In this document: in pieces, positions 13,794 through 51,241 of the stretch
Position numbering within the stretch: the first letter of the stretch is position 1
How the letters are laid out: each line of letters starts with the position of its first letter
Source of the DNA: Runella sp. CRIBMP
GTDB taxonomy: Bacteria > Bacteroidota > Bacteroidia > Cytophagales > Spirosomataceae
Length of the DNA: 64,000 nt
Assembly: GCF_009905605.1 (NCBI RefSeq)
Contig: NZ_JAAAKZ010000011.1
Location: 62,001 to 126,000, forward strand
Direction of reading: 5' to 3'
Program-made: the position numbers and the translations under genes
Notes under the pieces: generated by a model
What the model saw: the letters and a program-made list of their open reading frames with translations, nothing else
What the model was told of the DNA's origin: nothing
Databases searched by the model: none

Positions 13794-14534
13794 ATGAAAA
13801 AAACACATATACTTCTTGCAGAAGGTGAGCCCATTGCAGGAGCTGATCTTAAAGACCAACTACAGGAAATGGGTTACATTGTAACTGGCCCGTTTTCACA
13901 GGGAGAAAATGCGGTGAACTCATTAAATAACGGTTACCCAGATTTGGTTATCTTGGATATTCAACTGGCAGGAAAATGGGATGGAATCGAAACTGCCAAA
14001 CGAATACTAACAAAACAGAAGCTACCCATCATATTTTTATCGAGCAACTCCGATGCGGATACCTTCGCTAAAGCAAAGAATACGGCACCAGTAGCCTTTA
14101 TGTCTAAGCCATTCCGCATCCGTGATTTAAAATATACGATTGAATTAGCTCTTGAAAACTCAGAAAAAGAACCAAAAGATACAAGGCCCATAAAGTCTCC
14201 CGATTGTACTCCATGCCTCAGCGACCGACTGTTTATAAAGACAAAAGACCGAATGGAACGCGTTTTCTTTGATGATATATTATGGGTTGAAGCCGAAGAT
14301 TATTATTGTAAAATCATATCGAAAGAAAACGATATTCTGCTTACACAGAACTTGGGCAAATTAAGTGAAGCCCTCGAAAACCGCCCCGAATTTATAAGAG
14401 TACATCGGTCTTTCATTGTAAATCTTAAACATGTAGAGCAAATAAGGGAACTTCATCTTCATATTGGAACTAAACAGATTCCTCTAAGTAAATCATCGAA
14501 AGAAGAGTTAATGAGTCGACTTAGAAAGATATAA
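13794..14534 (+). CDS. LytTR-family response regulator (paralogue of the one at 48.6 kb)
   Basis: A 246-residue REC-LytTR transcription factor. In the receiver the phosphoacceptor is Asp55 in V-I-L-D-I-Q-L and the conserved Lys is in F-M-S-K-P-F. The acidic pocket reads A-E-G-E rather than the usual E-D-D, so one acidic residue is replaced by Gly and phosphorylation may be altered. The LytTR DNA-binding domain spans about 145-245 (F-I-R-V-H-R-S-F-I-V-N-L is its signature strand). It is highly similar throughout to the LytTR regulator at 48592-49335. No kinase gene adjoins it; the kinases lie 28-37 kb downstream. The 14.7-15.0 kb spacer next to it holds helically phased direct repeats, the expected type of LytTR target. 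Confidence 0.9.
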   Translation: MKKTHILLAEGEPIAGADLKDQLQEMGYIVTGPFSQGENAVNSLNNGYPDLVILDIQLAGKWDGIETAKRILTKQKLPIIFLSSNSDADTFAKAKNTAPVAFMSKPFRIRDLKYTIELALENSEKEPKDTRPIKSPDCTPCLSDRLFIKTKDRMERVFFDDILWVEAEDYYCKIISKENDILLTQNLGKLSEALENRPEFIRVHRSFIVNLKHVEQIRELHLHIGTKQIPLSKSSKEELMSRLRKI

Positions 14535-14702
14535 GTAATTTTTCTACTTATATTAACTCAAAAAGGACTTTTTGACTCCTAGAGCTATTTTTAAACCGTT
14601 AAATGGTATTTTTCTTTTAACTCTCATTACATTATCAAGCCCAAAATGAAGAATACTAATGATTTTTAAGAGACTTGACAAGTTTGTAACTAAAAATGAT
14701 AG

Positions 14703-14776
14703 TTTACTGGACAAAACGAATCGTTCACTGAAAAAACAAACACTTTCACTGAAAATACAAGGTTATTCACCTTTCA
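14703..14776 (+). promoter_or_regulatory. Array A: four direct repeats at exact 21-bp spacing (candidate LytTR sites)
   Basis: Elements begin at 14703 (TTTACTGGACA), 14724 (TTCACTGAAAA), 14745 (TTCACTGAAAA) and 14766 (TTCACCTTTCA), each 21 bp apart, i.e. on the same face of the helix. LytTR regulators such as AgrA bind 9-bp direct repeats with about 12-bp gaps, giving the same 21-bp period. Location between a LytTR gene and the glycogen synthase gene supports this role; binding is inferred. Confidence 0.6.
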
Positions 14777-14868
14777 ATAAAAAACAAGCACAGCCCTAAA
14801 AATGGCATATAAAGTTAATTTTATCCTAAAAAGACACCTATATATTAAAGGCATATAAAGTTTTTGCT

Positions 14869-15262: not shown

Positions 15263-17119
15263 TTGACCTCATTAATTACAAATTCGAAAAAGAAACTACT
15301 GTTTGAAGTTTCTTGGGAAATATGTAACCAAATTGGGGGAATTCATACTGTAATTCGTTCAAAAATTCCATCAATGATGGATAAATGGGGAGATGGCTAC
15401 ATAATGATGGGCCCCTATTTTGCCCAAAAGGCGGTAGAATTTGAACCGATTGATTATCCGAATGATTCCCCTGTTGGCAAAACAGTAGAAAAGTTACGAG
15501 GTATGGGCCTAACCATACATTGTGGCTATTGGTTGCTGGTTACAGGTAAACCAAGGGTAATTTTATTTGATTTAAACTGTATTTGGTCCAAACTTAGTCA
15601 TCTCAAAACCGAGTTTCAGGAACAACACAGAGTACAGGACTTTGGGACAGACCCACTTGTAAATCAAGTACTTGCATTCGGTGAATTGATTCGACTTTTT
15701 ATTGTTGAATTCATGTCGATCAATCCCATTTCTAATGAAGTTGTTGTCCATTTCCACGAGTGGATGACGGGGAGTGGTTTGCCAAAATTGTTCGCAAAAA
15801 AGGTAAACATCGCTACTGTATTTACCACCCATGCCACCATTTTAGGGCGGTATTTAGCCCAAAATGAACCAGATTTTTACACAAAACTCGAAAAATTTGA
15901 CTGGCGACATGAGTCTCGTCGATACGGTATTGAGGCGCAGGTGATTATTGAGAGGATGGCCGCCCAAAGTGCGGGTACTTTTACCACTATCAGTGAAATT
16001 ACCTCCCAGGAATGCATTCATTTTTTGGGTAGGGTTCCCGATTTAATTACGCCCAATGGCATCAAATTGGAAAAGTTCCCCCTCTTTAAATTAGAAAATC
16101 TGCATTTGCAGTACCGAAAGCACATTCATAAGTTTATAATGGGTCATTTTTTTCCGAGTTATTCATTTGACCTGAACAAGACCATCTATTTTTTTACTTC
16201 GGGTCGATTTGAATATAAAAACAAAGGATTTGATATTACCCTCGAAGCACTTTCTCTGCTTAACACTAAAATGAAGCAGGCGCGTATGGACACTACAGTG
16301 GTGATGTTTATAATTACCAATCAAAAAGTTAGGTCGGTCAATGCTTCGGTCATCAATTCACACTCTGTACTCAACGAATTGGAAGAAACCTGTAAATCCA
16401 TTCAAAAGGAAGTAGGCAGTAAGCTCTTCAAAAGTTTTGTAACAGGCGATCAGATTCAATTGCCTAATCTCAATTCTTTTGTTAGTGAATACCTCCAACA
16501 CCGGAGGGTAAGAACGATTCTGAGCTGGCGCTCAGAAAATCAACCTGCTTTTTTGACCCATGATTTGGCACAGGATGATGAAATCACGGATTATTGCCGA
16601 CAAACTAATCTCCTTAATAATCAGAAGGATAAGGTAAAGGTAGTTTATCACCCCGAATTTATTACTTCTTCCAATCCGCTATTTGGACTTGAATATGGGC
16701 AATTTGTGTGCGGATGCCATCTAGGGATTTTCCCGAGTTTTTATGAGCCCTGGGGTTATACTCCCCAAGAATGTGTGGTGGCAGGGGTGCCAACGGTGAC
16801 CAGTAATTTATCAGGTTTTGGACATTATGTTACCCAAAATATGAAAAATCACGACGACCGGGGTATCTATGTCGTCAACCGAAAATCTCAAACGTATACT
16901 GAATCCGTTGAGCAGTTGACAGATATCATGTTTCGGTTTGTCAAAAAGACCCGACGCAGCAATGAATCCGAGCGCAACCGAATGGAAAATGTGCTTGAAA
17001 AATTCAGTTGGAACAACATGCGCACCCATTACGACACCGCGCATGAAATAGCCCTAAAACGAAAAAAAAACATCCCTCATCCGCCGGCTTTGCCCGTCGA
17101 AGCGAGCGATATGTATTGA
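15263..17119 (+). CDS. GT3-type (eukaryote-like) glycogen synthase
   Basis: A 618-residue glycosyltransferase of the GT3 family that extends alpha-1,4-glucan from UDP-glucose in the cytoplasm. Landmarks: F-E-V-S-W-E-I-C-N-Q-I-G-G-I-H-T-V at the N-terminus (the GYS nucleotide-sugar loop), H-F-H-E-W-M-T-G and F-T-T-H-A-T in the first Rossmann domain, T-S-G-R-F-E-Y-K-N-K-G-F in the second, and the C-terminal F-P-S-F-Y-E-P-W-G-Y-T-P-Q-E donor-site motif with its two Glu residues. No ATG is available: the frame is closed by a stop at 15239 and the first usable start is TTG at 15263, which gives a normal N-terminus. First gene after the phased repeats; a glycogen debranching enzyme lies 13 kb downstream in the same direction. 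Confidence 0.9.
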   Translation: MTSLITNSKKKLLFEVSWEICNQIGGIHTVIRSKIPSMMDKWGDGYIMMGPYFAQKAVEFEPIDYPNDSPVGKTVEKLRGMGLTIHCGYWLLVTGKPRVILFDLNCIWSKLSHLKTEFQEQHRVQDFGTDPLVNQVLAFGELIRLFIVEFMSINPISNEVVVHFHEWMTGSGLPKLFAKKVNIATVFTTHATILGRYLAQNEPDFYTKLEKFDWRHESRRYGIEAQVIIERMAAQSAGTFTTISEITSQECIHFLGRVPDLITPNGIKLEKFPLFKLENLHLQYRKHIHKFIMGHFFPSYSFDLNKTIYFFTSGRFEYKNKGFDITLEALSLLNTKMKQARMDTTVVMFIITNQKVRSVNASVINSHSVLNELEETCKSIQKEVGSKLFKSFVTGDQIQLPNLNSFVSEYLQHRRVRTILSWRSENQPAFLTHDLAQDDEITDYCRQTNLLNNQKDKVKVVYHPEFITSSNPLFGLEYGQFVCGCHLGIFPSFYEPWGYTPQECVVAGVPTVTSNLSGFGHYVTQNMKNHDDRGIYVVNRKSQTYTESVEQLTDIMFRFVKKTRRSNESERNRMENVLEKFSWNNMRTHYDTAHEIALKRKKNIPHPPALPVEASDMY

Positions 17120-17190: not shown

Positions 17191-18018
17191 ATGTCTAAGA
17201 AAATTTTGGCTATCCTGTCTGAGTACGGGTACTGGGGCGTTGAGTTAGTCGGGCCCCTCGAAAAATTGGAAGCCGCCGGTTATACCGTCGAGTTCATGAC
17301 CCCGAAGGGTAAAAAGGCCCAGGCCTTACCCCCAAGTTATGATACTACTTACGTAGATCCACCGCTAGGCACCTGCGTCACTACGCCCGAAGCCGCCGAA
17401 AAAGTGAAAGCTTTTGAGGCTACAAATCGCTTAGAGCAACGTCGCAACCTTTCGGAGGAAGTTCCTGAAAGACCTTATTTCTCAACGCCAAACTTTTTGA
17501 GAGCATTTGAGCAGTATTTCACTGACTTAAAAGTAGCCCAAGAAAAATTAACGGAAGAGTATGCAGGTCTTTTATTGGTCGGCGGTAGCGGTCCAATCAT
17601 CGACATGGTAAACAACCAGCGCGTACATGACCTAATTTTAGGTTTTTACAAAAAAAATCAACCCATCGGTGCGATTTGTTACGGGGTTGCTCCGTTGGTT
17701 TTTGCCCGTGATTTCAACGAGCGTATTTCCATCATCAAAGGCAAACACGTGACTGGTCACTGCATTGAGTATGATTATCACGACGGTACAGGATTCCTCA
17801 ACACCGACCTCAACATGGGGCCTCCACCATATTGCCTTGAATACATTCTGGCCGATGCCGTTGGCCCTGAAGGTCAATTCCATGGAAATTTTGGCAAAGA
17901 AACTTCCGTCATTGTGGATTATCCATTCATTACTGCTCGCTCTCTTCAATGTTCATTCGAGTTTGGCGAACAATTTGTAAATGTGCTTGATAAAGGAGTA
18001 AAACGGTATGGCTGGTAA
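17191..18018 (+). CDS. DJ-1/PfpI superfamily protein (first of two)
   Basis: A 275-residue class I amidotransferase-like protein. The nucleophile elbow A-I-C-Y-G-V-A-P places Cys163, and Glu18 in the N-terminal E-Y-G-Y-W-G-V-E-L segment is at the position of the Cys-activating Glu of DJ-1/PfpI proteins. The family includes glyoxalase III-like, protease-like and chaperone (Hsp31) members; this one is longer than PfpI and closer in length to Hsp31-type proteins. It overlaps the following ThDP enzyme gene by 11 bases, so they are translationally coupled. In context it may act on a reactive carbonyl intermediate, but the substrate is unknown. Confidence 0.8.
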   Translation: MSKKILAILSEYGYWGVELVGPLEKLEAAGYTVEFMTPKGKKAQALPPSYDTTYVDPPLGTCVTTPEAAEKVKAFEATNRLEQRRNLSEEVPERPYFSTPNFLRAFEQYFTDLKVAQEKLTEEYAGLLLVGGSGPIIDMVNNQRVHDLILGFYKKNQPIGAICYGVAPLVFARDFNERISIIKGKHVTGHCIEYDYHDGTGFLNTDLNMGPPPYCLEYILADAVGPEGQFHGNFGKETSVIVDYPFITARSLQCSFEFGEQFVNVLDKGVKRYGW

Positions 18019-19714
18019 AACTGGTAATCAAAAAATCGTCGAGCAGTTTTTGGCCGACGGGATGGACTTTATGTTTGGTAATCCGGGAACGGTTGAACAG
18101 GGTTTTCTGGACGCCGTTGCCGAATACCCCGACATGAAGTATATTCTTACGTTGCAAGAAAGTATTGCCGTAATGATGGCGGATGGGTATGCTCGGCATA
18201 CCCAACGCCCTACGTTGGTACAGCTCCACAGCTCTCCTGGGATTGGGAATGCGGTGGGTGCGGTTTACCAAGCCAAAAGAGGCCACGCCCCTCTGGTGGT
18301 GATTGGGTCGGATGCTGGTACGCAATACATGAACATGGATGCGCAAATGGCCAATGACTTAGTGGCAATGATGGCGCCCGTCACGAAGTTTTCGACGATG
18401 GTGATGGATTCGAAATCATTGTTGAGAACCCTCAGAAAAGCCGTAAAAATTGCCTCTACCCCACCAATGGGTCCCGTGTACGTTTGTTTGCCTATGAACG
18501 TCCTCGACGAAGTAAATGAAGAGGAAGTTTTCCCAACCTGTATTCCCTCTACGCGGGTACTTCCTGACCCTGAGCTGATTACCCAAACGGCAAATATGCT
18601 TTTGGCTTCCGAAAAACCCATGATTTTCATCGGGGACGGAGTGGCTTACTCTAATGCCATCCCAGAATTAACTCAGGTGGCGGAGCTCATCGGTGCCGAA
18701 GTATACGGTGTAGATTTTGGGGATGTTATTTTTGATACTACCCACCCGCTTTATCAAGGTACCACGGGGCACATGTTTGGGTCTTATAGTCTGCCCATTA
18801 CATCCAAAGGGGATATAAACCTTATCGTTGGCACTTATATGTTGCCAGAGGTATTTCCCGAAACGGGTGAGATTTATGCTCCTGGGGCCAAGGTGGTGCA
18901 TTTCGACCTCAACAGTTACGAAATCGCCAAGAATCACCGGGTTGATGTAGGCGTAGTCAGCGACCCAAAACTTTCGCTAAAAGCACTGGCCGACGCGCTG
19001 AAATCAGCCATGACGCCCGAATTTAAAGCAGCGGCGGCGGCCCGGGTTCACCAGATTGGTGACGAAAAAGCCAAAAAACATTCTGCCGAACTGGCCAAAG
19101 ACCAAGACGAACCCGCTCGAGAAACCTTACGAATGGCGCAGTTTGCCGAAGTACTGTCTCGAAAATTGCCATCAGATGCCATTATTTTCGACGAAGCCTT
19201 GACCAATTCGCCCGCCATTACGCGGTACATTCCACCGCGCCAAGCGGGGCATTACTTTGTTACCCGGGGCGGTTCGCTCGGGGTTGGTTTTCCAGGTGCC
19301 ATTGGCGTAAAACTGGCAAATCCTGACAAAGTAGTGATTGGATTTTCGGGAGACGGGGGCAGTATGTACACGATACAAGCGCTTTGGTCGGCCATAAGAC
19401 ACAAGTCAGGGGCTAAGTTTATCGTCTGCAACAACGGTTCGTATAAGTTGCTTCAACTCAACATTGACGTTTATTGGAAAGAACGCAACATTGATAAGCA
19501 CGATTACCCGCTGCCCTTTGATTTATCTTACCCTGCCATTCGTTTCGACCTTTTGGCCCAATCCATGGGAGTCAAAGCGGTGCGGGTAGAAAAAGAATCA
19601 GAAATCCTGCCAGCCATTGAAAAAATGCTGGCCGACGACGAACCATTCCTGATTGACTTGGTGCTTGAAGGAGATTATAAACCCGACTTGATTAAAATCA
19701 ATTGTTCTCATTAA
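18008..19714 (+). CDS. Thiamine-diphosphate-dependent decarboxylase/carboligase-like enzyme
   Basis: A 568-residue ThDP enzyme of the acetolactate synthase / benzoylformate decarboxylase superfamily. The catalytic Glu51 lies in L-Q-E-S-I-A-V-M-M-A-D-G-Y-A-R. A central nucleotide-fold domain runs from about residue 190 to 320. The ThDP/Mg site is G-D-G-G-S followed by C-N-N-G-S-Y about 28 residues later. Such enzymes decarboxylate 2-keto acids or ligate the resulting activated aldehyde; sequence reading favours a benzoylformate-decarboxylase-like rather than a biosynthetic AHAS role, since no small regulatory subunit or ilv genes are nearby. It is coupled to the DJ-1 gene before it and followed by a GMC oxidoreductase. 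Confidence 0.85.
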   Translation: MAGKTGNQKIVEQFLADGMDFMFGNPGTVEQGFLDAVAEYPDMKYILTLQESIAVMMADGYARHTQRPTLVQLHSSPGIGNAVGAVYQAKRGHAPLVVIGSDAGTQYMNMDAQMANDLVAMMAPVTKFSTMVMDSKSLLRTLRKAVKIASTPPMGPVYVCLPMNVLDEVNEEEVFPTCIPSTRVLPDPELITQTANMLLASEKPMIFIGDGVAYSNAIPELTQVAELIGAEVYGVDFGDVIFDTTHPLYQGTTGHMFGSYSLPITSKGDINLIVGTYMLPEVFPETGEIYAPGAKVVHFDLNSYEIAKNHRVDVGVVSDPKLSLKALADALKSAMTPEFKAAAAARVHQIGDEKAKKHSAELAKDQDEPARETLRMAQFAEVLSRKLPSDAIIFDEALTNSPAITRYIPPRQAGHYFVTRGGSLGVGFPGAIGVKLANPDKVVIGFSGDGGSMYTIQALWSAIRHKSGAKFIVCNNGSYKLLQLNIDVYWKERNIDKHDYPLPFDLSYPAIRFDLLAQSMGVKAVRVEKESEILPAIEKMLADDEPFLIDLVLEGDYKPDLIKINCSH

Positions 19715-19752: not shown

Positions 19753-21267
19753 ATGAAATCTCACTGTCACTACATTATTATCGGAGCAGGTGCTTCGGGA
19801 AGCGTGATTGCAAACCGACTCAGTGCCGATCCTTCCGTGCAGGTTGTACTGCTCGAAGCCGGAGAATGGGATCAAACCGCCAATGTTGTTGACCCAGGCG
19901 GCTTTGTAAAATTGTGGGGTTCTCAACTTGATTGGTCGCTCCCTACCACTCCCCAACCTGCAATGGCTGGCCGCGAGCTGACCATCAATCAGGGAAAAGT
20001 GGTAGGGGGTAGTACCTCTATCAATGCCATGATGTATGTAAGGGGCAACCCCGCTAACTTCGATCAATGGCAAGCACTAGGGGCCGACGGGTGGAGCTAC
20101 AAGGATGTCTTACCTTATTTCAAAAGATTGGAGGATTACCAAGGTGGAGATCCCAATTTTAGAGGTACAGGCGGTGAAATCTCCGTGCGTGACTGTCCCG
20201 ACGAAGTAATGCGCTCTGAAGAATTTCTGCAAGGAGCTGTTGAGCTCGGTTATGATGGCCCACACTGGGACTATAACGGTGAGCGACAAGAAAATGGAGC
20301 TGCGTTGCTTCAGTTTCACATCACTCCTGAAGGCCAACGAGCAAGCAGCGCCACCGCTTTTTTGCAGCCTATTCTTGACCGTCCAAATTTTACGCTCATT
20401 ACGGGCGCCGAAGTAACGCGTATATTGATCAAGGATAAGCGGGCAATCGGCGTTGAATACCAACTGAACGGCAAGATTGAGCAACTCCTCGTTGAGAAGG
20501 AAGTAATTGTCAGTGCGGGAGCGCTAAGTTCTCCTAAAATCCTCTTGCTGTCGGGCATTGGTGAGGCTGAACATTTACAAAGCGTTGGTATTCCAATACA
20601 GCATGAGCTGCCAGGTGTGGGTAAAAACTTGCAGGATCACGTGCAGTTGCCCGTTATTTTCCGTACCAACGACGGTCCAATGACCACTTTATTGACGGGA
20701 AATGCGTTGTTTGTCAGAACCAACGAAAATTCAGTTGGGCCAGATTTACAGCTCAATTTTACCCCCAGTATTCCCGCACCTTTAGCCCCTGTTTTGCCAG
20801 ATTTTGGCGGTAATGTCTGCATTTTTCTCCCGATTCTTGTGCAACCCAAAAGCGTAGGCGACGTAAAACTTCGTTCAGACGACCCGCACGACAAGCCGCT
20901 CATTAATCCCAATTATCTGGAGCATCCCGACGACATGGAGGTATTGCGAAAAGCCATTCAACTGGTTCGAAATTTGAGCAATACCAAAGCATTTGCGCCC
21001 ATTAATGGGGGTGAGTTAGCGCCTGGTCCTGGAGATCCTGATGGGTTCATTCGTACCCAAAGCTCAACGCTTTGGCATCCCGCAGGTACTTGCAAAATCG
21101 GCACTGACGACTTAGCTGTGGTAGACTCCCGCTTGCGTGTTCACGGAATATCTGGTTTGCGCGTGGCCGATGCCTCCGTAATGCCAAACGTGACGAGTGG
21201 CAATACCGTAGCGGTCTGCTTTATGATTGGCGAAAAAGCCGCTGATATGATTTTGGCAGACGCCTAA
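19753..21267 (+). CDS. GMC-family FAD oxidoreductase (choline/alcohol dehydrogenase-like)
   Basis: A 504-residue glucose-methanol-choline oxidoreductase. It has the FAD dinucleotide motif I-I-I-G-A-G-A-S-G-S at the N-terminus, the GMC signature G-K-V-V-G-G-S-T-S-I-N-A at about residues 80-91, a second signature G-A-L-S-S-P-K-I-L near 256, and the catalytic pair His442 (H-P-A-G-T-C) and Asn484 (S-G-N-T). These enzymes oxidise alcohols to aldehydes. No signal peptide, so cytoplasmic. It sits between the ThDP enzyme and the SnoaL array, suggesting that it generates or consumes the substrate of that pathway. The actual alcohol is unknown. Confidence 0.9.
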   Translation: MKSHCHYIIIGAGASGSVIANRLSADPSVQVVLLEAGEWDQTANVVDPGGFVKLWGSQLDWSLPTTPQPAMAGRELTINQGKVVGGSTSINAMMYVRGNPANFDQWQALGADGWSYKDVLPYFKRLEDYQGGDPNFRGTGGEISVRDCPDEVMRSEEFLQGAVELGYDGPHWDYNGERQENGAALLQFHITPEGQRASSATAFLQPILDRPNFTLITGAEVTRILIKDKRAIGVEYQLNGKIEQLLVEKEVIVSAGALSSPKILLLSGIGEAEHLQSVGIPIQHELPGVGKNLQDHVQLPVIFRTNDGPMTTLLTGNALFVRTNENSVGPDLQLNFTPSIPAPLAPVLPDFGGNVCIFLPILVQPKSVGDVKLRSDDPHDKPLINPNYLEHPDDMEVLRKAIQLVRNLSNTKAFAPINGGELAPGPGDPDGFIRTQSSTLWHPAGTCKIGTDDLAVVDSRLRVHGISGLRVADASVMPNVTSGNTVAVCFMIGEKAADMILADA

Positions 21268-22205: not shown

Positions 22206-22247
22206 ATAAACTCTGTTTTTTTTACCGAAAACGTTAAAGCTATTCTC

Positions 22248-22658
22248 ATGTCAATTGAAGCCAACAAAGCAGTGGTTACCAGATACTGGACTGACCTTTG
22301 GAACAAAAAGGACGAAAAGGTAATCGACGAGATTACGCATCCAGACGTAAAATTGCACTTTCCGCCTGGTCAGGCACACCAGCCTCCATCTTTTCAAGTA
22401 TGGTTAAAAACGGCACTCATTGCCTTTCCAAATGTTCATTTTACGATCCATGATTTGGTAGCTGAAGGTGATAAGGTGGTTTGCAGGTGGTCCTATACTG
22501 CCACAAATACGGGTGTATTTTTGGGAAACCCTGCCACCAATCGCGATGTGACCGACCAAGGGATCAATATGTTTCGCATCCAAGACGGAAAGATTGCCGA
22601 AATGTGGATGTCGGGCGATAGCCTCGGTTTATTACAGCAATTGGGTGTGATTAAATAA
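22248..22658 (+). CDS. SnoaL-like ester cyclase family protein
   Basis: A 136-residue single-domain member of the array. N-terminal N-K-A-V-V-T-R-Y-W-T-D helix, central V-A-E-G-D-K-V-V-C-R-W strand pair, G-V-F-L-G-N-P-A-T-N-R-D-V, and the terminal S-L-G-L-L-Q-Q-L-G-V-I. Fold and length are standard for SnoaL/ester cyclases; the substrate is unknown. It lies 42 bases after the two-domain paralogue, to which its C-terminal signature is very close, implying recent duplication. Confidence 0.85.
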   Translation: MSIEANKAVVTRYWTDLWNKKDEKVIDEITHPDVKLHFPPGQAHQPPSFQVWLKTALIAFPNVHFTIHDLVAEGDKVVCRWSYTATNTGVFLGNPATNRDVTDQGINMFRIQDGKIAEMWMSGDSLGLLQQLGVIK

Positions 22659-22695
22659 ACAATAATACCTCCAACGAAAAAAGTCATTTTCAATC

Positions 22696-23487: not shown

Positions 23488-23560
23488 ATAACATTTTACA
23501 ACAAAGTAAGAAACAATTTCCTTTACAAAAAACCAATAATAAAACCTAAAACACACAGTT

Positions 23561-23998: not shown

Positions 23999-24007
23999 TC
24001 AATCCAT

Positions 24008-24030: not shown

Positions 24031-24055
24031 TTATCCTCTCAAGCCAACTGTCATC

Positions 24056-24496: not shown

Positions 24497-24544
24497 GAAT
24501 TGCGGGTTGCAGTTATTAAACTCTTTTTAAAACTCCAAAAAATT

Positions 24545-39442: not shown

Positions 39443-39464
39443 TCCATTTATATTTTACTTGATT

Positions 39465-42353: not shown

Positions 42354-42375
42354 ACCGTCCAGTATAAAAGAATCA

Positions 42376-45300
42376 ATGAAAAACTTATTGTCAACCTATC
42401 AACTACCAAACAGTTTACGCCAAATAGCTGTTTTTGCCCGTGGAATGACCATGTGGCTTTTGTTACTGTGGGGAGGTGGAGTGTGGGGACAATACAACAA
42501 ACAGGCTACTGAAAAGGGAATACCCCTCAGCAGAATGTTTAATCCGAAACAATACAATGCCCACGGTCAAAACTTCGCCATTGCGCAAGATAAACGGGGT
42601 TTGATGTATTTCGGAAATTTTGCGGGAGTGCTTGAGTACGACGGCGTTTCGTGGCGAACCATTCCTACCCAAAACATCACAAAGGTTTCGGCCCTGTGTG
42701 TAAGTGAATTCGGACGGGTGTTTGTGGGTGGAAAAGGTGAGTTTGGCTATTTAAAACCTGATAGCACCGGAACGCTCTATTTTGAAAGTTTAAGCAAAGC
42801 CATTAAAACTTCCTTTGGGCAAATCCTGAATATATTTCAAACAAAGGCGGGGGTATATTTTATCTCACAAGAATACGTTTTTTTGCTCACCTCCAAAGGA
42901 CTCAAAGAATTTAGAGTTAAGGGTACCATTCTGTCTTCGTTTTATGAAAATCAAAAAATTATCTTATTTCTAAAAAACGGAGGGCCTCAGTATTTAGAGG
43001 GCCAAAACTTGGTTCCGATCCCCAAAACCGCTATCACCCCTACTCTTTTTGATCTAACCGCGGTATTTCCATTAGAAAACAATGAATTCCTGTTGCTTAC
43101 GAGCAGTCAAGGTTTATTTAAATTATCCCAAAATACCATCAAAGTTTTTGATTGTGAAGCCAATAGCCAATTAATTACCAATCAAACTACCTCTGGAACT
43201 GTACTAAGAAATGGTCAATTTGCCATTGGAACCTTAAATGCAGGAATCGTTATTATTTCTAAAAATGGTCAAATTATCAACCAAATTAAAGACAATGACT
43301 ACCTGCAAAACATGCTCGTTAATGCCATGTTTACCAACCGTGACGGTGCATTATGGTTAGCGCTTAATAACGGTATTGTACAAATTGAAGTAGACTCTCC
43401 CATTGAAAAATTCAATGAATTTAGTAACCTGAAGGGCGAAGTAAAAGCCGTAGTACGGGCCAATGGACGCCTATATGCTGCCACTCTCAACGGCCTTTTT
43501 TACATCGACAATTTTAACGTCAAGCCCGTAGCTACCCTCAATGCAGGTTGTTTTGACTTGGCTGTGGCCTCTAATGGACTTTTAGCAGCTACCAACAGAG
43601 GCTTATTTTTAGTTTCAGAACGTGGTAGTCAACAACTTACTCCTTTTTATTCACTGTGCGTCTACGTTTCTAAAATAAATCCCTCCGTGGTTTTTGTGGG
43701 GCAGCAAAATGGGTTAGGAATGTTGAACCTAGCAGGCGGTGGACGAAACTTCCGACTTGTTGGTAAAACCAATGAGCAAATAGTAGGCATAACCGAAGAT
43801 GAAAAAGGGAATCTGTGGCTTGAAACCCTATCTGACGGCGTCATAAAAATCAACGTTCAAACCAACGAGGAAAAAAAGTACTCCGCCCAAGATGGTTTGC
43901 CGCCCTTATCGTACAATCGTATCACCAACACCTCCAAAGGACTTATTGCTTATAATCAAAAGGGAATTTTTCGGTTTCAGTCGCAAAAAGACAAATTCGA
44001 ACCTTTTAATCTTTTCCAAACCGATAGTGCAGCAACTGTATATTGGAACGGAAAAATTTTGGAAGAGCGAAGTGGAAAAATATGGACCACCCGTGGCGAC
44101 GAAAAATTGATAACTTCTTATCTACCAACAGGCCAACCCAACAAGCCTTATCAGGCCACTAATACCCCATTTTTGCCGATTTCAGATATACCATTTAACG
44201 TTATTTATCCAGACCAATCAAACATAATTTGGTTTGGAGGATCTGAGGGTTTGATTCGGTTTGATTTAAACCTCAGTCAAGAATACCAAAGGTCGTTTCC
44301 AGCATTGATTCGAAAAGTGACGGTCAAAGGCGAACAAGCGCTATTCAACGGTTATCCTACCGATTCAACAGCCATTACTGATAATCTGTCGGTGCCGAAA
44401 ATTCGTTTAGAGCCCAATAATAATAACATAGAATTTGAATTTTCAGCCCCGAGTTTTAATGTTAACGAAGTATTGAGCTTTCAATACTACCTCGAAAACT
44501 TTGATAAAGTGTGGTCAGAATGGACTACACAATCTCAAAAGGAATATACCAACCTTCCGCCAGGAAACTATAAATTTAGGGTAAGAGCCCGCAATATTTA
44601 CGGAAAACAAAGTGATGAAGCCATCGTCGAATTTTCGATAGCAACGCCAATGTATCTTAAATGGTGGGCTATTGCCGCCTACATTTTGCTGATTGGAGCG
44701 CTTATTTACAACTCCGTACGTTGGCGTTTGCGGGTATTGGTTCGTGAAAAATTGGAACTTGAAAACCTCATTCGTGAGCGTACGGAGGAAGTGGTGACCC
44801 AAAAAGTTGAGTTGGAACAACAATCAGAAGAGCTTACTACCAAAAATGATCAACTCGAAAAAATTGACTTTATCGTTCAGGCCATCAATACAGAAATCAA
44901 CTTCGCGAATTTGTTTCAAACCGTCTTAAACCGTTTGAAAATCATTCGTAACATGGACTGTGCCAGTGCTTTGATTTTTAATAAAGAAACCAACGGCTAT
45001 CAATTCAAAGCGCTTTATGGCTTCAATGAACTATCGACGGTAGAATCGGTTCAATTAAGCCTTGAAGAAGCCGAAAATCGCTATATTTACGAAGCCATAG
45101 AAGTCTACGAAGATATTTATTTTAAGAATGACATTACCTATGAAAAACTGAATAACCCCATTGATTCTTTGGTGACTCCTAAATCCATGATTGCCATCGT
45201 TATCAAAGTGGATAATCATATTGAAGGTTTTATCACGCTCGAAAACTCCGTCCGCGCAAACGCGTTTGACCAACGAGATTTCAACATGATTAAAAACTTA

Positions 45301-46173
45301 AAGGAACACCTGATTGCGGCTTACATCAAAACCCGCATTCTGGAAGACCTCGAAAAGACCCTGAGCAACCTTAAGAATACCCAAGAAGAGTTGATTCGAC
45401 AGGAACGTCTGGCCTCGGTGGGTCAATTGACCAAAGGAATTGTTGACCGAATTTTGAATCCGTTGAATTATATAAACAACTTTTCTGAATCTTCAACCAT
45501 TTTGATTGATGAACTCAATGAGCTGCTCGAAAAGAACAAAGCGGGTATCAATCAGGATTTACAAGAAGAATTTGAAGATTCGCTGACGTTACTCAAAAAT
45601 AGCATTACCAAAATTTATGACCATGGAAACAGTACAACGCGTATTGTCAAGGACATGCAGAAATTGCTCAAAGAAAAATCCCGTGAGTTTTTTGAAACAG
45701 ATTTAAATTATTTTATTGAGAGCAGAGCAAAAGTCATTTTTCACGACTTTACCCAAAAGAACAGGGATTTTAACGGTGAATTGCTCATTGACCTAGAAAA
45801 CCAATCGCTAAAAACCCGCATTCTCCCGCCTGAGTTTGGGGATGTTCTTTCCAACATCATTGATAATGCCCTTTACACGGTGTCGGAAAAAAGTAAACTC
45901 AATAAAAATTTTTCACCCCAAATTAAATTAACAACGAAACTAATCAACGGTGAAATTCAGTTAAGAATCCGCGACAATGGAAAAGGAATCCCACAACGTG
46001 ATTTAAATCTAATTTTTAGCCCTTTCTTTACCACCAAACCAACTTCAAAAGGTACTGGATTGGGCCTTTTTATGACCAAAGACATCATTGAACTCCATAA
46101 AGGGAGAATAGAACTCACTTCCAAAGAGGGGGAGTTTACCGAAGTAATTATCACGTTACCAACGCTCAACTAA
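42376..46173 (+). CDS. Propeller-Y_Y_Y sensor with GAF and degenerate histidine-kinase core
   Basis: A 1265-residue membrane sensor (ATG 42376 precedes the signal segment; longer frames overlap the transporter gene). Periplasmic two-component-regulator propeller blades span about 40-660, a Y_Y_Y domain about 670-755, one transmembrane helix about 763-783, then a coiled coil, a GAF-like domain (about 835-985) and a HisKA-HATPase core. The H-box reads G-Q-L-T-K-G-I-V-D-R-I-L-N-P-L-N: the phosphoacceptor His is Asp (residue 1024) and the next acidic residue is Arg. The ATPase boxes are intact (I-I-D-N-A-L, D-N-G-K-G-I-P, F-F-T-T-K-P, G-T-G-L-G-L). It may be a pseudokinase sensor acting through the soluble kinase encoded next. 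Confidence 0.85.
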   Translation: MKNLLSTYQLPNSLRQIAVFARGMTMWLLLLWGGGVWGQYNKQATEKGIPLSRMFNPKQYNAHGQNFAIAQDKRGLMYFGNFAGVLEYDGVSWRTIPTQNITKVSALCVSEFGRVFVGGKGEFGYLKPDSTGTLYFESLSKAIKTSFGQILNIFQTKAGVYFISQEYVFLLTSKGLKEFRVKGTILSSFYENQKIILFLKNGGPQYLEGQNLVPIPKTAITPTLFDLTAVFPLENNEFLLLTSSQGLFKLSQNTIKVFDCEANSQLITNQTTSGTVLRNGQFAIGTLNAGIVIISKNGQIINQIKDNDYLQNMLVNAMFTNRDGALWLALNNGIVQIEVDSPIEKFNEFSNLKGEVKAVVRANGRLYAATLNGLFYIDNFNVKPVATLNAGCFDLAVASNGLLAATNRGLFLVSERGSQQLTPFYSLCVYVSKINPSVVFVGQQNGLGMLNLAGGGRNFRLVGKTNEQIVGITEDEKGNLWLETLSDGVIKINVQTNEEKKYSAQDGLPPLSYNRITNTSKGLIAYNQKGIFRFQSQKDKFEPFNLFQTDSAATVYWNGKILEERSGKIWTTRGDEKLITSYLPTGQPNKPYQATNTPFLPISDIPFNVIYPDQSNIIWFGGSEGLIRFDLNLSQEYQRSFPALIRKVTVKGEQALFNGYPTDSTAITDNLSVPKIRLEPNNNNIEFEFSAPSFNVNEVLSFQYYLENFDKVWSEWTTQSQKEYTNLPPGNYKFRVRARNIYGKQSDEAIVEFSIATPMYLKWWAIAAYILLIGALIYNSVRWRLRVLVREKLELENLIRERTEEVVTQKVELEQQSEELTTKNDQLEKIDFIVQAINTEINFANLFQTVLNRLKIIRNMDCASALIFNKETNGYQFKALYGFNELSTVESVQLSLEEAENRYIYEAIEVYEDIYFKNDITYEKLNNPIDSLVTPKSMIAIVIKVDNHIEGFITLENSVRANAFDQRDFNMIKNLKEHLIAAYIKTRILEDLEKTLSNLKNTQEELIRQERLASVGQLTKGIVDRILNPLNYINNFSESSTILIDELNELLEKNKAGINQDLQEEFEDSLTLLKNSITKIYDHGNSTTRIVKDMQKLLKEKSREFFETDLNYFIESRAKVIFHDFTQKNRDFNGELLIDLENQSLKTRILPPEFGDVLSNIIDNALYTVSEKSKLNKNFSPQIKLTTKLINGEIQLRIRDNGKGIPQRDLNLIFSPFFTTKPTSKGTGLGLFMTKDIIELHKGRIELTSKEGEFTEVIITLPTLN

Positions 46174-46196: not shown

Positions 46197-47093
46197 ATGG
46201 AAAATGACAATAAAACGATTGAGTCTGAAAAAAAGGGTGAATTAGAACACCAAGAAAATCACCAATCTGAGCATGACATTGAGGCACTTAAAGAGCGGTA
46301 CAAACAAATGAATAAATTGGCCGAAATTGGTCAGTTAACGGCAGGAATTCTGCACGAAATTCAAAATCCCCTAAATTTTGTAAATAACTTCTCAAAACTC
46401 TCCATTGAATTAGTCAAAGAAATAAAAGAGATTTTTGACAATCGTAAGGATGTTCAACTCACCGAAGAGGAGGAAGATTTGCTTTTTTTGCTTGACCAAC
46501 TAACTGGTCTTAACCAGAAAATCGGAGAAAACGGGGCCCGAATTACCCGAATTATCCAAAGTATGTTAGCGCAAACAAGAAGCGAAAGCAAGGACCCCCA
46601 ATTTGATCCCGTTGATTTAAACGTTTTGTTAGAAGAATTTACAAAACTCGCCTATCAAGGCACCCGCGGAGAGGATAGGTCGTTCAATGTATCGTTGGTT
46701 TTTCAACTGGATACCACCGTAAAAATGGTAAAAATCTCCGCTACCGAGATTAGTAGGGTGATCCTTAATTTGGTTAATAATGCCTGCTACGCCATCAATG
46801 AAAAACTCAAACTGCAGATTGAAGGATACGCGCCCCAAATCATCGTCACTTCAAAACGGCTGAGTGATATGGTTGAGATAAAAATCAGGGACAACGGCAT
46901 AGGAATTCCAGATTCAATTAAAGAAAAACTATTTACACCTTTTTTTACCACTAAACCCGTTGGTAAAGGCACTGGATTAGGGCTAGCACTGAGCCGTGAT
47001 ATTGTAAATATTATGCACCGAGGCACGGTGAGTGTTGACTCTGAGGCAGGTAAATTTACTGAATTTACTCTTCAAATTCCTTTAACATTATAA
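46197..47093 (+). CDS. Soluble sensor-less histidine kinase
   Basis: A 298-residue cytoplasmic kinase with a short charged N-terminus and no sensor domain. The H-box G-Q-L-T-A-G-I-L-H-E-I-Q-N-P-L-N has the phosphoacceptor His53, exactly where the upstream sensor has Asp. ATP-binding boxes: N-L-V-N-N-A-C-Y-A-I, D-N-G-I-G-I-P, F-F-T-T-K-P and G-T-G-L-G-L. Its core is clearly homologous to the end of the upstream 1265-residue protein, so heterodimerisation is plausible. It is 79 bases before the REC-PP2C gene, the likely phosphotransfer target. Confidence 0.92.
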   Translation: MENDNKTIESEKKGELEHQENHQSEHDIEALKERYKQMNKLAEIGQLTAGILHEIQNPLNFVNNFSKLSIELVKEIKEIFDNRKDVQLTEEEEDLLFLLDQLTGLNQKIGENGARITRIIQSMLAQTRSESKDPQFDPVDLNVLLEEFTKLAYQGTRGEDRSFNVSLVFQLDTTVKMVKISATEISRVILNLVNNACYAINEKLKLQIEGYAPQIIVTSKRLSDMVEIKIRDNGIGIPDSIKEKLFTPFFTTKPVGKGTGLGLALSRDIVNIMHRGTVSVDSEAGKFTEFTLQIPLTL

Positions 47094-47172: not shown

Positions 47173-48348
47173 ATGGCAATCAAGATACTAAGTATGGATG
47201 ACGAATTAGATATGGAAATGCTCATCCAAACTCGATTCAGAAAACAAATTCGTGAAAAAAGATACGAATTCATTTTTGTACACAATGGCGTTGAAGCCCT
47301 CGAAGCGTTAACTGAACATTCCGACATCGACATTGTGCTTTCGGATATCAACATGCCCGAAATGGACGGGCTGACTTTTTTGTCGCACCTCAACCAAATA
47401 AAAAAATCAAGGATAAAAGCGGTGATGGTTTCGGCTCATGGTGATATGGACAATATCCGGCGGGCCATGAACCTTGGAGCGTTTGATTTTATAACAAAAC
47501 CCATCAATTTTGATGACTTAGACATTACCATTGACAAAACCGCCGGGTACATCGAAATGGTGATACAGCATGAGAAGGAGCGAGACCAATTGGTCTCGAT
47601 TCAGAATGATTTGCTCATTGCCAGGGATATTCAACAATCAATGTTGCCTAAGATTTTTCCACCTTTCCCCAATCGAAAAGACCTAGATTTGCACGGCTTT
47701 CTCGAACCAGCCAAATCGGTAGGTGGAGATTTATTCGATTTCTTCTTGATTGACGAAAATCACCTTTTCTTTATCATCGGAGATGTATCTGATAAAGGAG
47801 TGCCAGCGTGTATGTTTATGGCCATTACAAAAGCCATTTTCAAAACCCATTTTTTACACCGTAACTATGAAGATATCGCCGATGAAGTAAAAGAAGTTAA
47901 CGCATTCTTATCGGAAGACAACGACTCTTTTATGTTTGTAACTGCCTTTATTGGCATTTTAGATTTACAGACAGGCGTCGTTGAATACGTTGATGCAGGC
48001 CATGAGCCACCTTTCATTTTACGAAAAGATAAGGGAGTTGAACCGGTGGTAAAAACAACGGGTATGGCACTTGGTATCGACCCGAGCTACAACTATAAAA
48101 AACAAGTGTTGACTTTAAACCCTGGCGACACCCTTTTTATGTATACAGATGGTGTAACCGATGCCAATAATACGGCAGGCGACCGCTTCGGCACCCATAG
48201 AGCAGAAGAAGTTTTAACACCTTTTGTTAATGCACCGTTGCCCCAAGACATCAACAACTCCATTCGCCAGCACTTGAAAGACTTTATCGGTGAAAACTCA
48301 CAATTTGATGATATTACCGTCTTGACGATTCAGTATAACGGCAACTAA
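47173..48348 (+). CDS. Response regulator with PP2C/SpoIIE phosphatase output (RsbU-like)
   Basis: A 391-residue REC-PP2C protein. Receiver: D-D at 9-10, phosphoacceptor Asp58 in V-L-S-D-I-N-M-P, Lys in I-T-K-P-I. Phosphatase: S-V-G-G-D-L-F-D-F-F, G-D-V-S-D-K-G-V-P-A, Y-V-D-A-G-H-E-P-P and F-M-Y-T-D-G-V-T-D-A carry the metal-binding Asp residues of the SpoIIE/RsbU group. Such proteins dephosphorylate STAS antagonists, here presumably the STAS proteins at 29.6 and 32.1 kb, joining the two-component input to the partner switch. A strong terminator follows. Confidence 0.93.
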   Translation: MAIKILSMDDELDMEMLIQTRFRKQIREKRYEFIFVHNGVEALEALTEHSDIDIVLSDINMPEMDGLTFLSHLNQIKKSRIKAVMVSAHGDMDNIRRAMNLGAFDFITKPINFDDLDITIDKTAGYIEMVIQHEKERDQLVSIQNDLLIARDIQQSMLPKIFPPFPNRKDLDLHGFLEPAKSVGGDLFDFFLIDENHLFFIIGDVSDKGVPACMFMAITKAIFKTHFLHRNYEDIADEVKEVNAFLSEDNDSFMFVTAFIGILDLQTGVVEYVDAGHEPPFILRKDKGVEPVVKTTGMALGIDPSYNYKKQVLTLNPGDTLFMYTDGVTDANNTAGDRFGTHRAEEVLTPFVNAPLPQDINNSIRQHLKDFIGENSQFDDITVLTIQYNGN

Positions 48349-48441: not shown

Positions 48442-48591
48442 CGTATAATAAAAAACTACGATTGGCATATAATTTTTAGCCCTTTCGTACACAAAAAAAT
48501 GATTTTTAGTCCTAAAATGGCTTAATTAGACCCTTATTTAATACACTAATGATATTGACCTTTTTCCTCAAAACTTCCTTTTAAGTAAATT

Positions 48592-49335
48592 ATGGATGCA
48601 ATTCAAATCGTTATTGTTGAAGATGATGCCATTATCGGAGCAGACCTCCAAGACCGCCTTGAGGAGATGGGCTACGAAGTGATTGGACTTTTCGATAATG
48701 GTGAGGAAGCTTATGAATATCTCCAACAATCTTCTCCAGATTTAATTATCATGGATGTGCAGTTGTCGGGAAAATGGGATGGGATTGAAACAGTAAGACA
48801 GATTTCAAAAAAAGTTCAGTTTCCAATCATTTTTTTGACGGGTAATTCTGATGAAATTACCTTTTCAAAAGCAAAAACCACTGCACCAGCGGCTTTTCTT
48901 TCCAAACCTTATCGTGGTCGAGATTTAAAACATGCAATTGAATTAGCCATCATTCAATCAGCCGTAAAAACAAAAAAAATGGTTGATGTTGCTGAAAATG
49001 AAAGTGCCTACGTTCTTCAAGATCGGCTTTTTGTCAAAGTAAAAAACGGTATGGAACGATTATTTTTTCAGGACATCCAATGGGTCGAAGCCAACGATTA
49101 TTATTGTAAAGTTTTTACTCGGACGAAAGAGATTCAAATTTTACAAACCTTAGGTAAATTTAGTGAAACCCTGAGCAATCTATCTGAATTTTTGAGGGTA
49201 CATCGTTCATTTATTGTTAATTTGAACCATGTTGAGCAAATTGGTGACCTTTCCCTCTACATTGGTAAGCACCAAATTCCAGTTAGCAAATCCGCCCGAG
49301 AAGAAATCATGGGACGTTTAAAGAAGATTTCTTAA
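48592..49335 (+). CDS. LytTR-family response regulator (second, paralogue of the one at 13.8 kb)
   Basis: A 247-residue REC-LytTR regulator. Acidic pocket V-E-D-D, phosphoacceptor Asp55 in I-I-M-D-V-Q-L, Lys in F-L-S-K-P-Y, and the DNA-binding signature F-L-R-V-H-R-S-F-I-V-N-L. It aligns with the regulator at 13794 without large gaps, sharing G-A-D-L-x-D and G-K-W-D-G-I-E-T blocks, but has an intact acidic pocket. It is 13 bases before a TPR-HisKA_2 kinase gene, its evident partner. It probably recognises the same type of DNA repeat as its paralogue, making the 14.7-15.0 kb arrays a possible shared target. Confidence 0.92.
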   Translation: MDAIQIVIVEDDAIIGADLQDRLEEMGYEVIGLFDNGEEAYEYLQQSSPDLIIMDVQLSGKWDGIETVRQISKKVQFPIIFLTGNSDEITFSKAKTTAPAAFLSKPYRGRDLKHAIELAIIQSAVKTKKMVDVAENESAYVLQDRLFVKVKNGMERLFFQDIQWVEANDYYCKVFTRTKEIQILQTLGKFSETLSNLSEFLRVHRSFIVNLNHVEQIGDLSLYIGKHQIPVSKSAREEIMGRLKKIS

Positions 49336-49348
49336 TTTCATTTCAATA

Positions 49349-51241
49349 ATGAAAAAAACTTTACTCAAAACTCTGGCTTTTTTGTTTAGTTTTTCGGCAT
49401 TTTCACAAAATACACTTCCCGAAAGTTCTGAGAAAAAGATTTTGTTATTGAACAATACTCTCCTAAAAATCAGAAAATTATATACATTAGCAGAATCTAT
49501 TAACAACACTGATATAGGAAGCGCTAAAAGAATTTTTCACCTATCTTACCATATTGCAAAGGAAAATAATCACCAAGAGTGGATTCCCAAAATTGAGTTT
49601 AATCTAGGAAATGTCGGGGCAAATTTAAATCAACCCGACTCAGCTCTTTATTACTACAATCGAGCTTTATACGCATTTCAGAAGCAAAACAATTTAAAAT
49701 GGGAAGCCAAAACTTTTGGTAGAATCTGTTGGGTATACAATTATTTGGGCAATTTTGACAAAGCGTTACTTTACGGATTTCGGGCGCTTACAATTTATCA
49801 AAAACTCAATGACCCCATTGGAATTGCAAAAGCTAATTCGGATTTAGCTTCCGTTTTTTTTTCACAGAATAAATCTGAAGAAGCAATCAATTATGCACAA
49901 AAAGCATACGATGAGCAAAAACAATCAAATATTTTAAGAGACCTCTCCACGTCGGCCCAAATTCTGGGGGATGCTTGGCTGCTGTCTGGTAACTCTCAAA
50001 AAGCATTGACATTTCTTAATGAAAGTCTAAACATTAGGCGTCTTTTTAACTACGACACAGATATTGCGCTCTCATTGAATAGTAGAGCCAACGTTTACAA
50101 AAAAAAACGACAATATATAGCCGCCCTTGCTGATTATAAAGAGAGCCTCCGAATAGCCCAAAATAGCAGAATTTATTGGCTTACCGCCTCTATTACTGGC
50201 AGTATTGGACATATATACAATATGATGAGAAAATATCGGGAAGCTCTGCCATATTTAATTGAAAATGAAAAGCTATTAAAAAAAACATTTCGCTCCCAAC
50301 AGGCTGTAGATAATTATAAACTACTAGCTGATACCTATGGTCAACTAAAAAAGTACGATTCAGCCTTTTATTTTCAGAAGAAAGCATCGTTTATCGGTGA
50401 CAGTTTACTGAATGCTCAGAAAAATTTTCAATTTTCAAGTTTAAAGACGCAATACGAATCAGAACAAAAGGAGACTCAAATTGCATTACAAAATAAGCAA
50501 TTATCAGAGGACCGAATAAAACTTTGGACTTTATCTTCTTTTCTTGGTTTGATGATTATTGGTGGTCTGATGCTATTTAGGCTCATTCGCACCTTACGCC
50601 AACGCAATAAAGAAAAGGAATATTTGATTAGGGAGATTCACCATCGTGTGAAAAACAACCTTCAAGTTCTTTCAAGTTTATTACATCTACAAAGTAAATA
50701 CATAAAAGATAAAGCCGCATTGGAAGCAATAAGAGAAAGCGAAAACCGCGTAGAAGCGATGGGACTTATTCACCAAAAATTATACATGGGAATCAATCCA
50801 GGAACAGTGGATATGAACGATTATCTCAAAAACCTGGGTATTTCGTTATTGGATTCATTTGGTTTGCTTACCACTGAGCAAGTCACGATTAACTATAAGT
50901 TGGATCCAATTTATTTAGACGTAGACACCGCAATGATTATTGGCCTGATTGTTAATGAATTATTAACCAATTCCCTAAAATATGCTTTTCCCGAGGGGCG
51001 AACAGGCGAGATTGAACTTTCGTTTTGTGAGGAAAATGACAAACTCTGCCTTCAAGTAAAAGACAATGGTATTGGCTCTGCCAAAGCACCAGAATTAAAT
51101 AATGGAACCGCTTTTGGATTGAATCTGGTAAAGATTTTAAGTAAAAAACTCAAAGGAGACTCCAAAATAATCGAAACTACCGAGGGCTACTCAACATTTC
51201 TACAATTTGAAAAGGTAATGGGTAATCATGCGGTATACTAA
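49349..51241 (+). CDS. TPR-containing HisKA_2 sensor histidine kinase
   Basis: A 630-residue membrane kinase: signal peptide (F-L-F-S-F-S-A-F-S-Q), periplasmic TPR units (about 60-370; for example Y-Y-N-R-A-L-Y-A-F and A-I-N-Y-A-Q-K-A-Y), a transmembrane helix (about 392-413), HisKA_2 with E-I-H-H-R-V-K-N-N-L-Q-V-L (His431/432) and a HATPase with N-E-L-L-T-N-S-L-K-Y-A-F, D-N-G-I-G and F-G-L-N-L-V. This class is commonly paired with LytTR regulators, as here. The TPR region likely senses a periplasmic or envelope signal, unknown. Last intact gene of the long plus-strand locus. Confidence 0.92.
   Translation: MKKTLLKTLAFLFSFSAFSQNTLPESSEKKILLLNNTLLKIRKLYTLAESINNTDIGSAKRIFHLSYHIAKENNHQEWIPKIEFNLGNVGANLNQPDSALYYYNRALYAFQKQNNLKWEAKTFGRICWVYNYLGNFDKALLYGFRALTIYQKLNDPIGIAKANSDLASVFFSQNKSEEAINYAQKAYDEQKQSNILRDLSTSAQILGDAWLLSGNSQKALTFLNESLNIRRLFNYDTDIALSLNSRANVYKKKRQYIAALADYKESLRIAQNSRIYWLTASITGSIGHIYNMMRKYREALPYLIENEKLLKKTFRSQQAVDNYKLLADTYGQLKKYDSAFYFQKKASFIGDSLLNAQKNFQFSSLKTQYESEQKETQIALQNKQLSEDRIKLWTLSSFLGLMIIGGLMLFRLIRTLRQRNKEKEYLIREIHHRVKNNLQVLSSLLHLQSKYIKDKAALEAIRESENRVEAMGLIHQKLYMGINPGTVDMNDYLKNLGISLLDSFGLLTTEQVTINYKLDPIYLDVDTAMIIGLIVNELLTNSLKYAFPEGRTGEIELSFCEENDKLCLQVKDNGIGSAKAPELNNGTAFGLNLVKILSKKLKGDSKIIETTEGYSTFLQFEKVMGNHAVY

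Follow-up and report, generated by a model that had tools for sequence, protein, structure and literature searches.

Gene content of the block

We analysed a 64,000-nt stretch of DNA from Runella sp. CRIBMP (the window; G000:C3:62001-126000), which lies on a 194,064-bp contig of a 7.13-Mb genome, and focused on a block of genes at 13,794-51,241 of the window. A preliminary description of this DNA had read the block as a co-directional locus that joins glycogen metabolism to a small-molecule pathway and a signalling system, and indeed we found 30 accepted genes there, all on the plus strand. The core of the block, which comprises an AGE-type barrel enzyme, a STAS protein (STAS1), the glycogen debranching enzyme GlgX, a second STAS protein (STAS2), an RsbW-type kinase and a PP2C phosphatase, is an icfG-type cluster that is enlarged here.

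The intergenic gaps in the block are shorter than 120 nt except for three, of 728, 180 and 243 nt, and the minus-strand frames of at least 100 aa inside it all overlap accepted plus-strand genes. The plus-strand run extends upstream of the block, from 5,520, and the genes upstream have close matches solely in Runella stretches. The block opens with a REC-LytTR response regulator at 13,794-14,534 rather than with the glycogen synthase, which had been taken for its first gene and starts at 15,263. Most of the earlier gene names were borne out by Pfam, but the "NTT" label of the transporter was not, as no ATP/ADP-carrier model matched; the copy of this gene in Runella rosea carries the annotation "MFS transporter". 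The features are listed below, where DJ1a, DJ1b, Unk1, Unk2, SnoA7 and the like are working short names of this analysis and ThDP stands for thiamine diphosphate.

13794..14534, +: REC-LytTR response regulator 1 (Pfam Response_reg and LytTR); close relatives at this place in Runella only
15263..17119, +: GT3 glycogen synthase, accessory paralogue (Pfam Glycogen_syn)
17191..18018, +: DJ1a, DJ-1/PfpI protein (Pfam ThiJ_like/DJ-1_PfpI); 11-nt overlap with the ThDP gene
18008..19714, +: ThDP enzyme type 1, benzoylformate-decarboxylase-like (Pfam TPP_enzyme N/M/C); best PDB matches are benzoylformate decarboxylases
19753..21267, +: GMC oxidoreductase (Pfam GMC_oxred); choline dehydrogenase/alcohol oxidase-like, under the NCBIfam cut-offs
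21333..24952, +: SnoaL array of six genes (Pfam SnoaL/SnoaL_2)
24989..25645, +: Unk1, with long hydrophobic stretches seen by eye; no Pfam or NCBIfam match
25617..26063, +: SnoA7, SnoaL_2 protein (Pfam SnoaL_2)
26119..26544, +: Unk2, marker of the metabolic module; no Pfam match, AlphaFold model with a predicted local distance difference test score (pLDDT) of 95.1
26663..27235, +: DJ1b, DJ-1/PfpI protein (Pfam DJ-1_PfpI)
27248..27667, +: VOC/glyoxalase-like protein (Pfam Glyoxalase)
27731..29557, +: AGE-type barrel enzyme (Pfam GlcNAc_2-epim); Slr1855 counterpart by gene order
29579..29917, +: STAS1 (Pfam STAS), with Ser54; Slr1856 counterpart by gene order
29920..32037, +: GlgX glycogen debranching enzyme (NCBIfam TIGR02100 above cut-off)
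32072..32392, +: STAS2 (Pfam STAS), with Ser57; Slr1859 counterpart by gene order
32573..32998, +: RsbW/SpoIIAB-type serine kinase (Pfam HATPase_c_2); Slr1861 counterpart by gene content
33034..36225, +: nSTAND1-WD40 protein (Pfam nSTAND1, WD40)
36233..38851, +: TonB-dependent receptor (Pfam; order kept)
38858..39442, +: GNAT acyltransferase with weak FeeM similarity (Pfam Acetyltransf_1 above cut-off, FeeM below)
39459..42353, +: MFS-like transporter with HEAT repeats (HEAT_2 above cut-off; MFS_1 below, 31.7 vs 33.4 bits)
42304..46173, +: Reg_prop-Y_Y_Y sensor kinase (Pfam)
46197..47093, +: histidine kinase, HK (Pfam HATPase_c above cut-off, HisKA below)
47173..48348, +: REC-SpoIIE/PP2C phosphatase (Pfam SpoIIE and Response_reg); IcfG counterpart by gene content
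48592..51241, +: REC-LytTR 2 and TPR histidine kinase (Pfam); close relatives in Runella only

From the order of helices and strands in its AlphaFold model, we read the fold of Unk2 as probably NTF2/SnoaL-like. The AGE protein of the window has its nearest relatives among Runella sequences and is 65-92% identical to the 29 others in a 30-row alignment. The sensor part of the PP2C phosphatase differs among the eight loci scanned.

Likeness to the icfG cluster and conservation of the block

According to two papers, the icfG operon of Synechocystis PCC 6803 (slr1852-slr1862), a cyanobacterial cluster for carbon control, encodes the AGE protein Slr1855, the STAS protein Slr1856, the GlgX-type isoamylase Slr1857, a second STAS protein Slr1859, the PP2C phosphatase IcfG (Slr1860) and the RsbW-type kinase Slr1861 (PMC12329169, PMC8670252). 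The order AGE-STAS-GlgX-STAS is common to both clusters, which are likened through published gene content. In the window, two conserved-serine STAS proteins flank GlgX, the AGE-type gene lies directly upstream of the first STAS gene as slr1855 does of slr1856 (PMC8670252), and the cluster holds both an RsbW/SpoIIAB-type kinase with ATP-binding residues and a SpoIIE/PP2C phosphatase. A similar arrangement, DJ1b (33%)-AGE-STAS1-GlgX-STAS2-PP2C-RsbW, is present in Calothrix brevissima NIES-22 (L176). The Runella block differs from Synechocystis in that RsbW comes after STAS2 and REC-PP2C follows 14 kb further on, in the additional DJ1a-ThDP-GMC-SnoaL-VOC genes, nSTAND-TonB-GNAT-transporter-sensor-HK genes, LytTR and glycogen synthase, and in a genome with one region-3 sigma factor only. 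The earlier statement that no described system has this content is therefore wrong for the core. Among the open-licence PMC papers listed in our searches, mostly judged by title and opening of the abstract, we found none on the whole gene set of the block, nor one that links the carbonyl module, an AGE-STAS fusion or non-cyanobacterial copies to icfG.

Key positions of the switch proteins are conserved. Ser54 of stand-alone STAS1 is present in 66/66 relatives and Ser57 of STAS2 in 59/59 (125/125 together), and by analogy to SpoIIAA and RsbV we take this serine to be the switch phosphorylation site. Residues E43, N47, D79, G108 and G110 of RsbW are invariant in 69/69, and we counted these as ATP-binding residues, an assumption with partial support from two residues of Slr1861. 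The latter are E43 and N50 (PMC12329169).

A GTDB scan with the AGE alignment yielded 278 places, and the best 80 were kept (65-100% identical). Locus counts refer to flanks of at most 10 kb on each side, several of them short, and to matches of at least 50 bits, and distal genes are under-counted. Near AGE in these best 80 of the 278 loci, we found STAS1 in 79, GlgX in 79, STAS2 in 72, RsbW in 71, DJ1b in 70, a ThDP enzyme in 59 (including a second type of about 24% identity), VOC in 58, DJ1a in 56, Unk2 in 46, SnoA7 in 40, PP2C in 37, nSTAND in 32 and GMC in 32. The order DJ1b-VOC-AGE-STAS1-GlgX-STAS2-RsbW-nSTAND-TonB-GNAT-transporter-sensor-HK-PP2C is conserved at 38-88% identity in four other genera, represented by G015, Arundinibacter roseus (G023), Persicitalea jodogahamensis (G029) and Rhabdobacter roseus (G036). 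The SnoaL genes, DJ1a, ThDP, GMC and Unk2 adjoin this conserved run in A. roseus and R. roseus, are partly present in P. jodogahamensis and in Runella sp. MFBS21, and are all absent from the 80-kb stretch of G015 that was compared.

Other parts of the block have a narrower distribution. In the stretches of relatives compared, the LytTR regulator and TPR kinase were found at 56% identity or more in Runella only; a distant TPR kinase and LytTR pair (30-33%) lies upstream of the Arsenicibacter AGE cluster on the same strand (L107 4602-7217). The nSTAND, TonB receptor, GNAT and transporter genes are an add-on seen in Bacteroidota. Comparative genomics had been proposed as a check on the block, and because its order is kept in four other genera and linkage extends across several phyla, its conservation is more than chance. 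We conclude that the block is, with high probability, one conserved icfG-type unit.

Metabolic module, plasmids and glucan genes

To describe the linkage of the metabolic module to the core, we counted its ThDP enzyme and AGE in 395 genomes drawn from the phylum. AGE was present at E <= 1e-100 in 13 (8 at 58% identity or more and 5 at 42-49%), six of which lacked ThDP. Eight genomes were ThDP-positive, and seven of these were also AGE-positive, all of the strong-AGE kind (Fisher p = 2e-13, using the 8 strong-AGE genomes and ignoring kinship). In the single genome with ThDP and without AGE (G361), which is 85% complete, the ThDP gene stands at a contig end. Among 72,556 plasmids, AGE was found in 17, spanning seven genera, and ThDP in 14, all of them among the 17; the ThDP plasmids belong to five genera (eight Streptomyces, three Nostoc, and one each of Runella, Deinococcus and Gemmobacter). 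The ThDP-AGE gap on them is below 12 kb in 13/14 and about 23 kb in Nostoc edaphicum. We also searched 21 AGE-positive genomes, most of them chosen because ThDP type 1 was unseen near AGE and two, which hold ThDP, as positive checks; ThDP type 1 and Unk2 occurred in the same seven and were both absent in 14. The metabolic module is tightly linked to the core, yet optional, since the core is also found without it.

The composition of the module varies between loci. GMC (31 loci by frames) and a molybdenum hydroxylase (8 loci, counted only if like one family at 35% identity and 60% coverage) co-occur in 0/80 loci; this exclusion is partly kinship, yet Runella and Dyadobacter each show both states. 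Relatives without GMC have in the cluster a metallo-beta-lactamase-fold protein and a molybdenum hydroxylase with an FAD subunit (L100 2750-7784). Likewise, ThDP type 1 (41 loci) and type 2 (15 loci) co-occur in 0/80, and the two type 2 proteins scanned are acetolactate-synthase-like. These exchanges suggest that an oxidation step follows a 2-oxo-acid or carboligase reaction. In such a pathway the ThDP, DJ-1, GMC (or molybdenum hydroxylase), VOC and NTF2 proteins would process a 2-oxo or aldehyde product.

Plasmid carriage is evident within Runella. In R. rosea HYN0085 the cluster lies on a complete plasmid, NZ_CP030852.1 (G010:C3). Contig G012:C31 of R. aurantiaca YX9 has an exact 127-bp overlap of its ends and is thus likely to be circular; a ParA-like gene lies on it, and about 61 kb of it match G000:C3 at about 91%. 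G000:C3 itself has a Rep3-type initiator gene, from which we consider it probably a plasmid, too; its ends showed no overlap. The Streptomyces, Deinococcus, Nostoc and Gemmobacter plasmids carry DJ1a-ThDP-DJ1-AGE, mostly with GlgX and/or STAS. On the Gemmobacter and three cyanobacterial plasmids AGE is fused to a STAS domain. The genes of these plasmid clusters are annotated, but we found no open-licence PMC paper that describes them as a system. Inside the cluster on a Nostoc plasmid, two genes are annotated as Nif11-like leader peptides (L215 17543-18203). Recent inter-phylum transfer was considered as a reading of the AGE tree and rejected: on the 75-row tree, built from the best 80 of the 278 matches, the phylum labels need 8 changes, which is the minimum. 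Carriage of AGE on plasmids of seven genera still allows transfer.

The glucan genes beside the core differ between lineages. A second GT3 glycogen synthase in the same genome (G000:C23:499364) has relatives in the other genomes of the genus and family (36), while the accessory paralogue of the block was found in Runella only, and Rhabdobacter has a different, inverted GT3 gene (44%). In the genus, 7/13 genomes have both the block GlgX (at 91% or more) and the accessory glycogen synthase (at 71% or more), and the other 6 have neither; GlgX of G009 and G002 is cut at contig ends. In three Streptomyces plasmid regions that we viewed, the cluster has as an annotated neighbor a GlgE-type maltosyltransferase, together with GlgB or TreS; GlgE and TreS were absent from the window block in the Pfam scan. 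We conclude that glucan genes were recruited separately in different lineages, the extra glycogen synthase being an acquisition of Runella. Such recruitment links the cluster to alpha-glucans. In several genomes (G013, G014, G020, G021, G022, G028, G032 and others) a glycogen synthase match runs across a stop codon, possibly mere alignment past the gene end.

Taken together, debranching, carbonyl-type enzymes and the partner switch occur together in many lineages, as the preliminary description supposed, and its single-unit idea is right for the metabolic module and the partner switch; for glycogen synthase, a Runella-only paralogue, membership of that wider unit is not supported. Metabolic and regulatory halves at unrelated sites, which would have spoken against the idea, were not found, with the limit that some genomes have the core but no ThDP module (14/21).

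The partner switch and its proposed target

Evidence on the target of the switch came from AGE-STAS fusions. We examined 112 AGE frames, some of which are one gene fetched twice, and nine had long C-terminal tails; eight of these tails are STAS-like and the ninth (L215) is not. The STAS2 profile outscored the STAS1 profile in 8/8 fused domains (lowest 41.5 vs 13.6 bits, highest 106.7 vs 45.8, closest pair 46.1 vs 33.3), and in a tree with long-branch warnings the fused domains fall together in a single clade on the side of STAS2. The switch serine is kept in 1/8 fused domains, replaced by threonine in 2/8 and by another residue in 5/8. A tblastn search with the window RsbW gave no match in any of the eight loci with a fusion; two of these loci are short, at 12.0 and 5.6 kb. 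An AGE-STAS fusion suggests that the separate STAS2 and AGE proteins touch, and we propose that the switch acts in part on AGE itself, so that it may work on enzymes directly and not through gene expression alone. Results from Synechocystis that speak for a role of STAS2 are that growth in low carbon with glucose is attenuated when Slr1859 is lost, but not when Slr1856 is lost (PMC11619594); both proteins are more phosphorylated in the dark (PMC7466104).

We put forward, tentatively and at rather less than even chances, a model in which the partner switch controls the metabolic enzymes directly and needs no sigma factor, the cassette with its carbonyl module is plasmid-borne in several phyla, and one branch fused STAS2 to the enzyme and lost the switch serine. 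The REC domain of PP2C would receive its phosphate from the HK and/or the Y_Y_Y sensor. STAS1 and STAS2 would be substrates of the RsbW-type kinase, and PP2C would reverse at least one of these phosphorylations. In its unphosphorylated state, STAS2 would then bind directly to the AGE-barrel enzyme, perhaps in a complex that includes GlgX, and thereby set the fate of glycogen-derived sugar; the kinase and phosphatase would gate AGE by shifting STAS2 from the enzyme to the kinase and back. A precedent for controlling GlgX directly exists in Streptomyces, whose GlgX binds cyclic di-GMP (PMC9530166). That STAS2 acts on AGE itself, a step proposed from sequence, is possible, if somewhat short of an even chance. 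As an overall explanation, an enlarged icfG-type cluster, probably on a plasmid and with the proposed switch, accounts best for the data, and we place it at even chances.

Several observations weigh against direct control. Three of the 8 fused tails fall below the Pfam STAS cut-off or are unseen by it (five lie above, two below and one is unseen). The fusions sit on long branches and look like one event, the threonine in two of them could still be phosphorylated, and a fusion suggests but does not prove contact between separate proteins. Three fusion loci have an annotated "ATP-binding protein" with 30-33% tblastn matches to the window HK, so that a diverged kinase is possible there. Moreover, 14/21 of the AGE-positive genomes searched lack ThDP type 1 and Unk2. 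In Synechocystis, the kinase acts better on Slr1856 than on Slr1859, and in vitro IcfG removes the phosphate from Slr1856 but not from Slr1859 (PMC12329169, PMC11619594), so that a simple cycle of PP2C and STAS2 is at odds with the data from that organism. A sigma target is documented there as well, Slr1861 being an anti-sigma factor for SigC (PMC12329169); together with the IcfG and Slr1856 data, this lowers the odds of STAS2 acting on AGE and slightly raises those of a sigma target.

The principal alternative is a classical anti-sigma switch, in which the RsbW-type kinase sequesters a sigma factor that STAS1 and STAS2 release, and the enzymes are a regulon beside its regulator. PP2C, conserved-serine STAS proteins and the RsbW kinase family are common to the block and to the SigB/SigF modules (RsbU/RsbV/RsbW). 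Unlike those modules, the Runella genome has no sigma factor above the curated SigB/F/G cut-off (1/14 control genomes has one above it), and it has one sigma factor with region 3. Its further matches with region 4 only, which are probably extracytoplasmic function factors, leave room for such a target, as do the anti-SigC role of Slr1861 and the annotation of a Streptomyces copy as "anti-sigma regulatory factor". However, this alternative leaves the STAS2-AGE fusions unexplained, and no annotated sigma gene was present in the cluster regions viewed, for which the gene table is incomplete. We regard it as rather doubtful, though to be taken seriously. It is unlikely that the block is instead a set of side-by-side units with no shared function (an icfG-type core, a carbonyl/oxidation operon and a receptor/transport/two-component unit), as might be read from the 14/21 genomes with a core alone and from nSTAND in 32/80 fetched flanks, because order is kept across genera and ThDP without AGE occurs on 0/14 plasmids and in 1/8 genomes, the one with the contig-end gene.

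In a 2025 paper the target sigma factors of Slr1856 and Slr1859 are called unknown (PMC12329169). The AGE-STAS fusions, their altered serine and the lack of a SigB-type sigma factor in the Runella genome turn this target question into a two-protein binding test. The cluster also connects glycogen with an uncharacterised oxidative branch, and does so on plasmids in several phyla.

Signals and neighbors of the block

Scans for signals in the window were uninformative. A Bacteroidota-type promoter pattern was found 6 times against 5.3 expected; other promoter scans gave 47 vs 37.1 and 44 vs 42.9, and terminator scans 26 vs 23.3 and 32 vs 20.7, with many hits of both kinds inside genes. An Rfam scan had 0 matches at gathering scores and a tRNA scan had 0.

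Upstream of the block, at 2024-2992, lies a tyrosine recombinase gene; in Runella sp. MFBS21 a 79% relative (G006:C3:105899-106810) sits downstream of the cluster, at a distance of about 10 kb. A 130-aa short-chain dehydrogenase fragment, perhaps a truncated gene, directly follows the block at 51497-51889. Beyond it, a minus-strand set at 52514-61760 encodes a GDSL-like protein, a TIM barrel, two Gfo/Idh proteins, a phosphotriesterase-like protein, an FAD oxidoreductase, and SIS and ROK proteins, and is perhaps a sugar-type catabolic operon.

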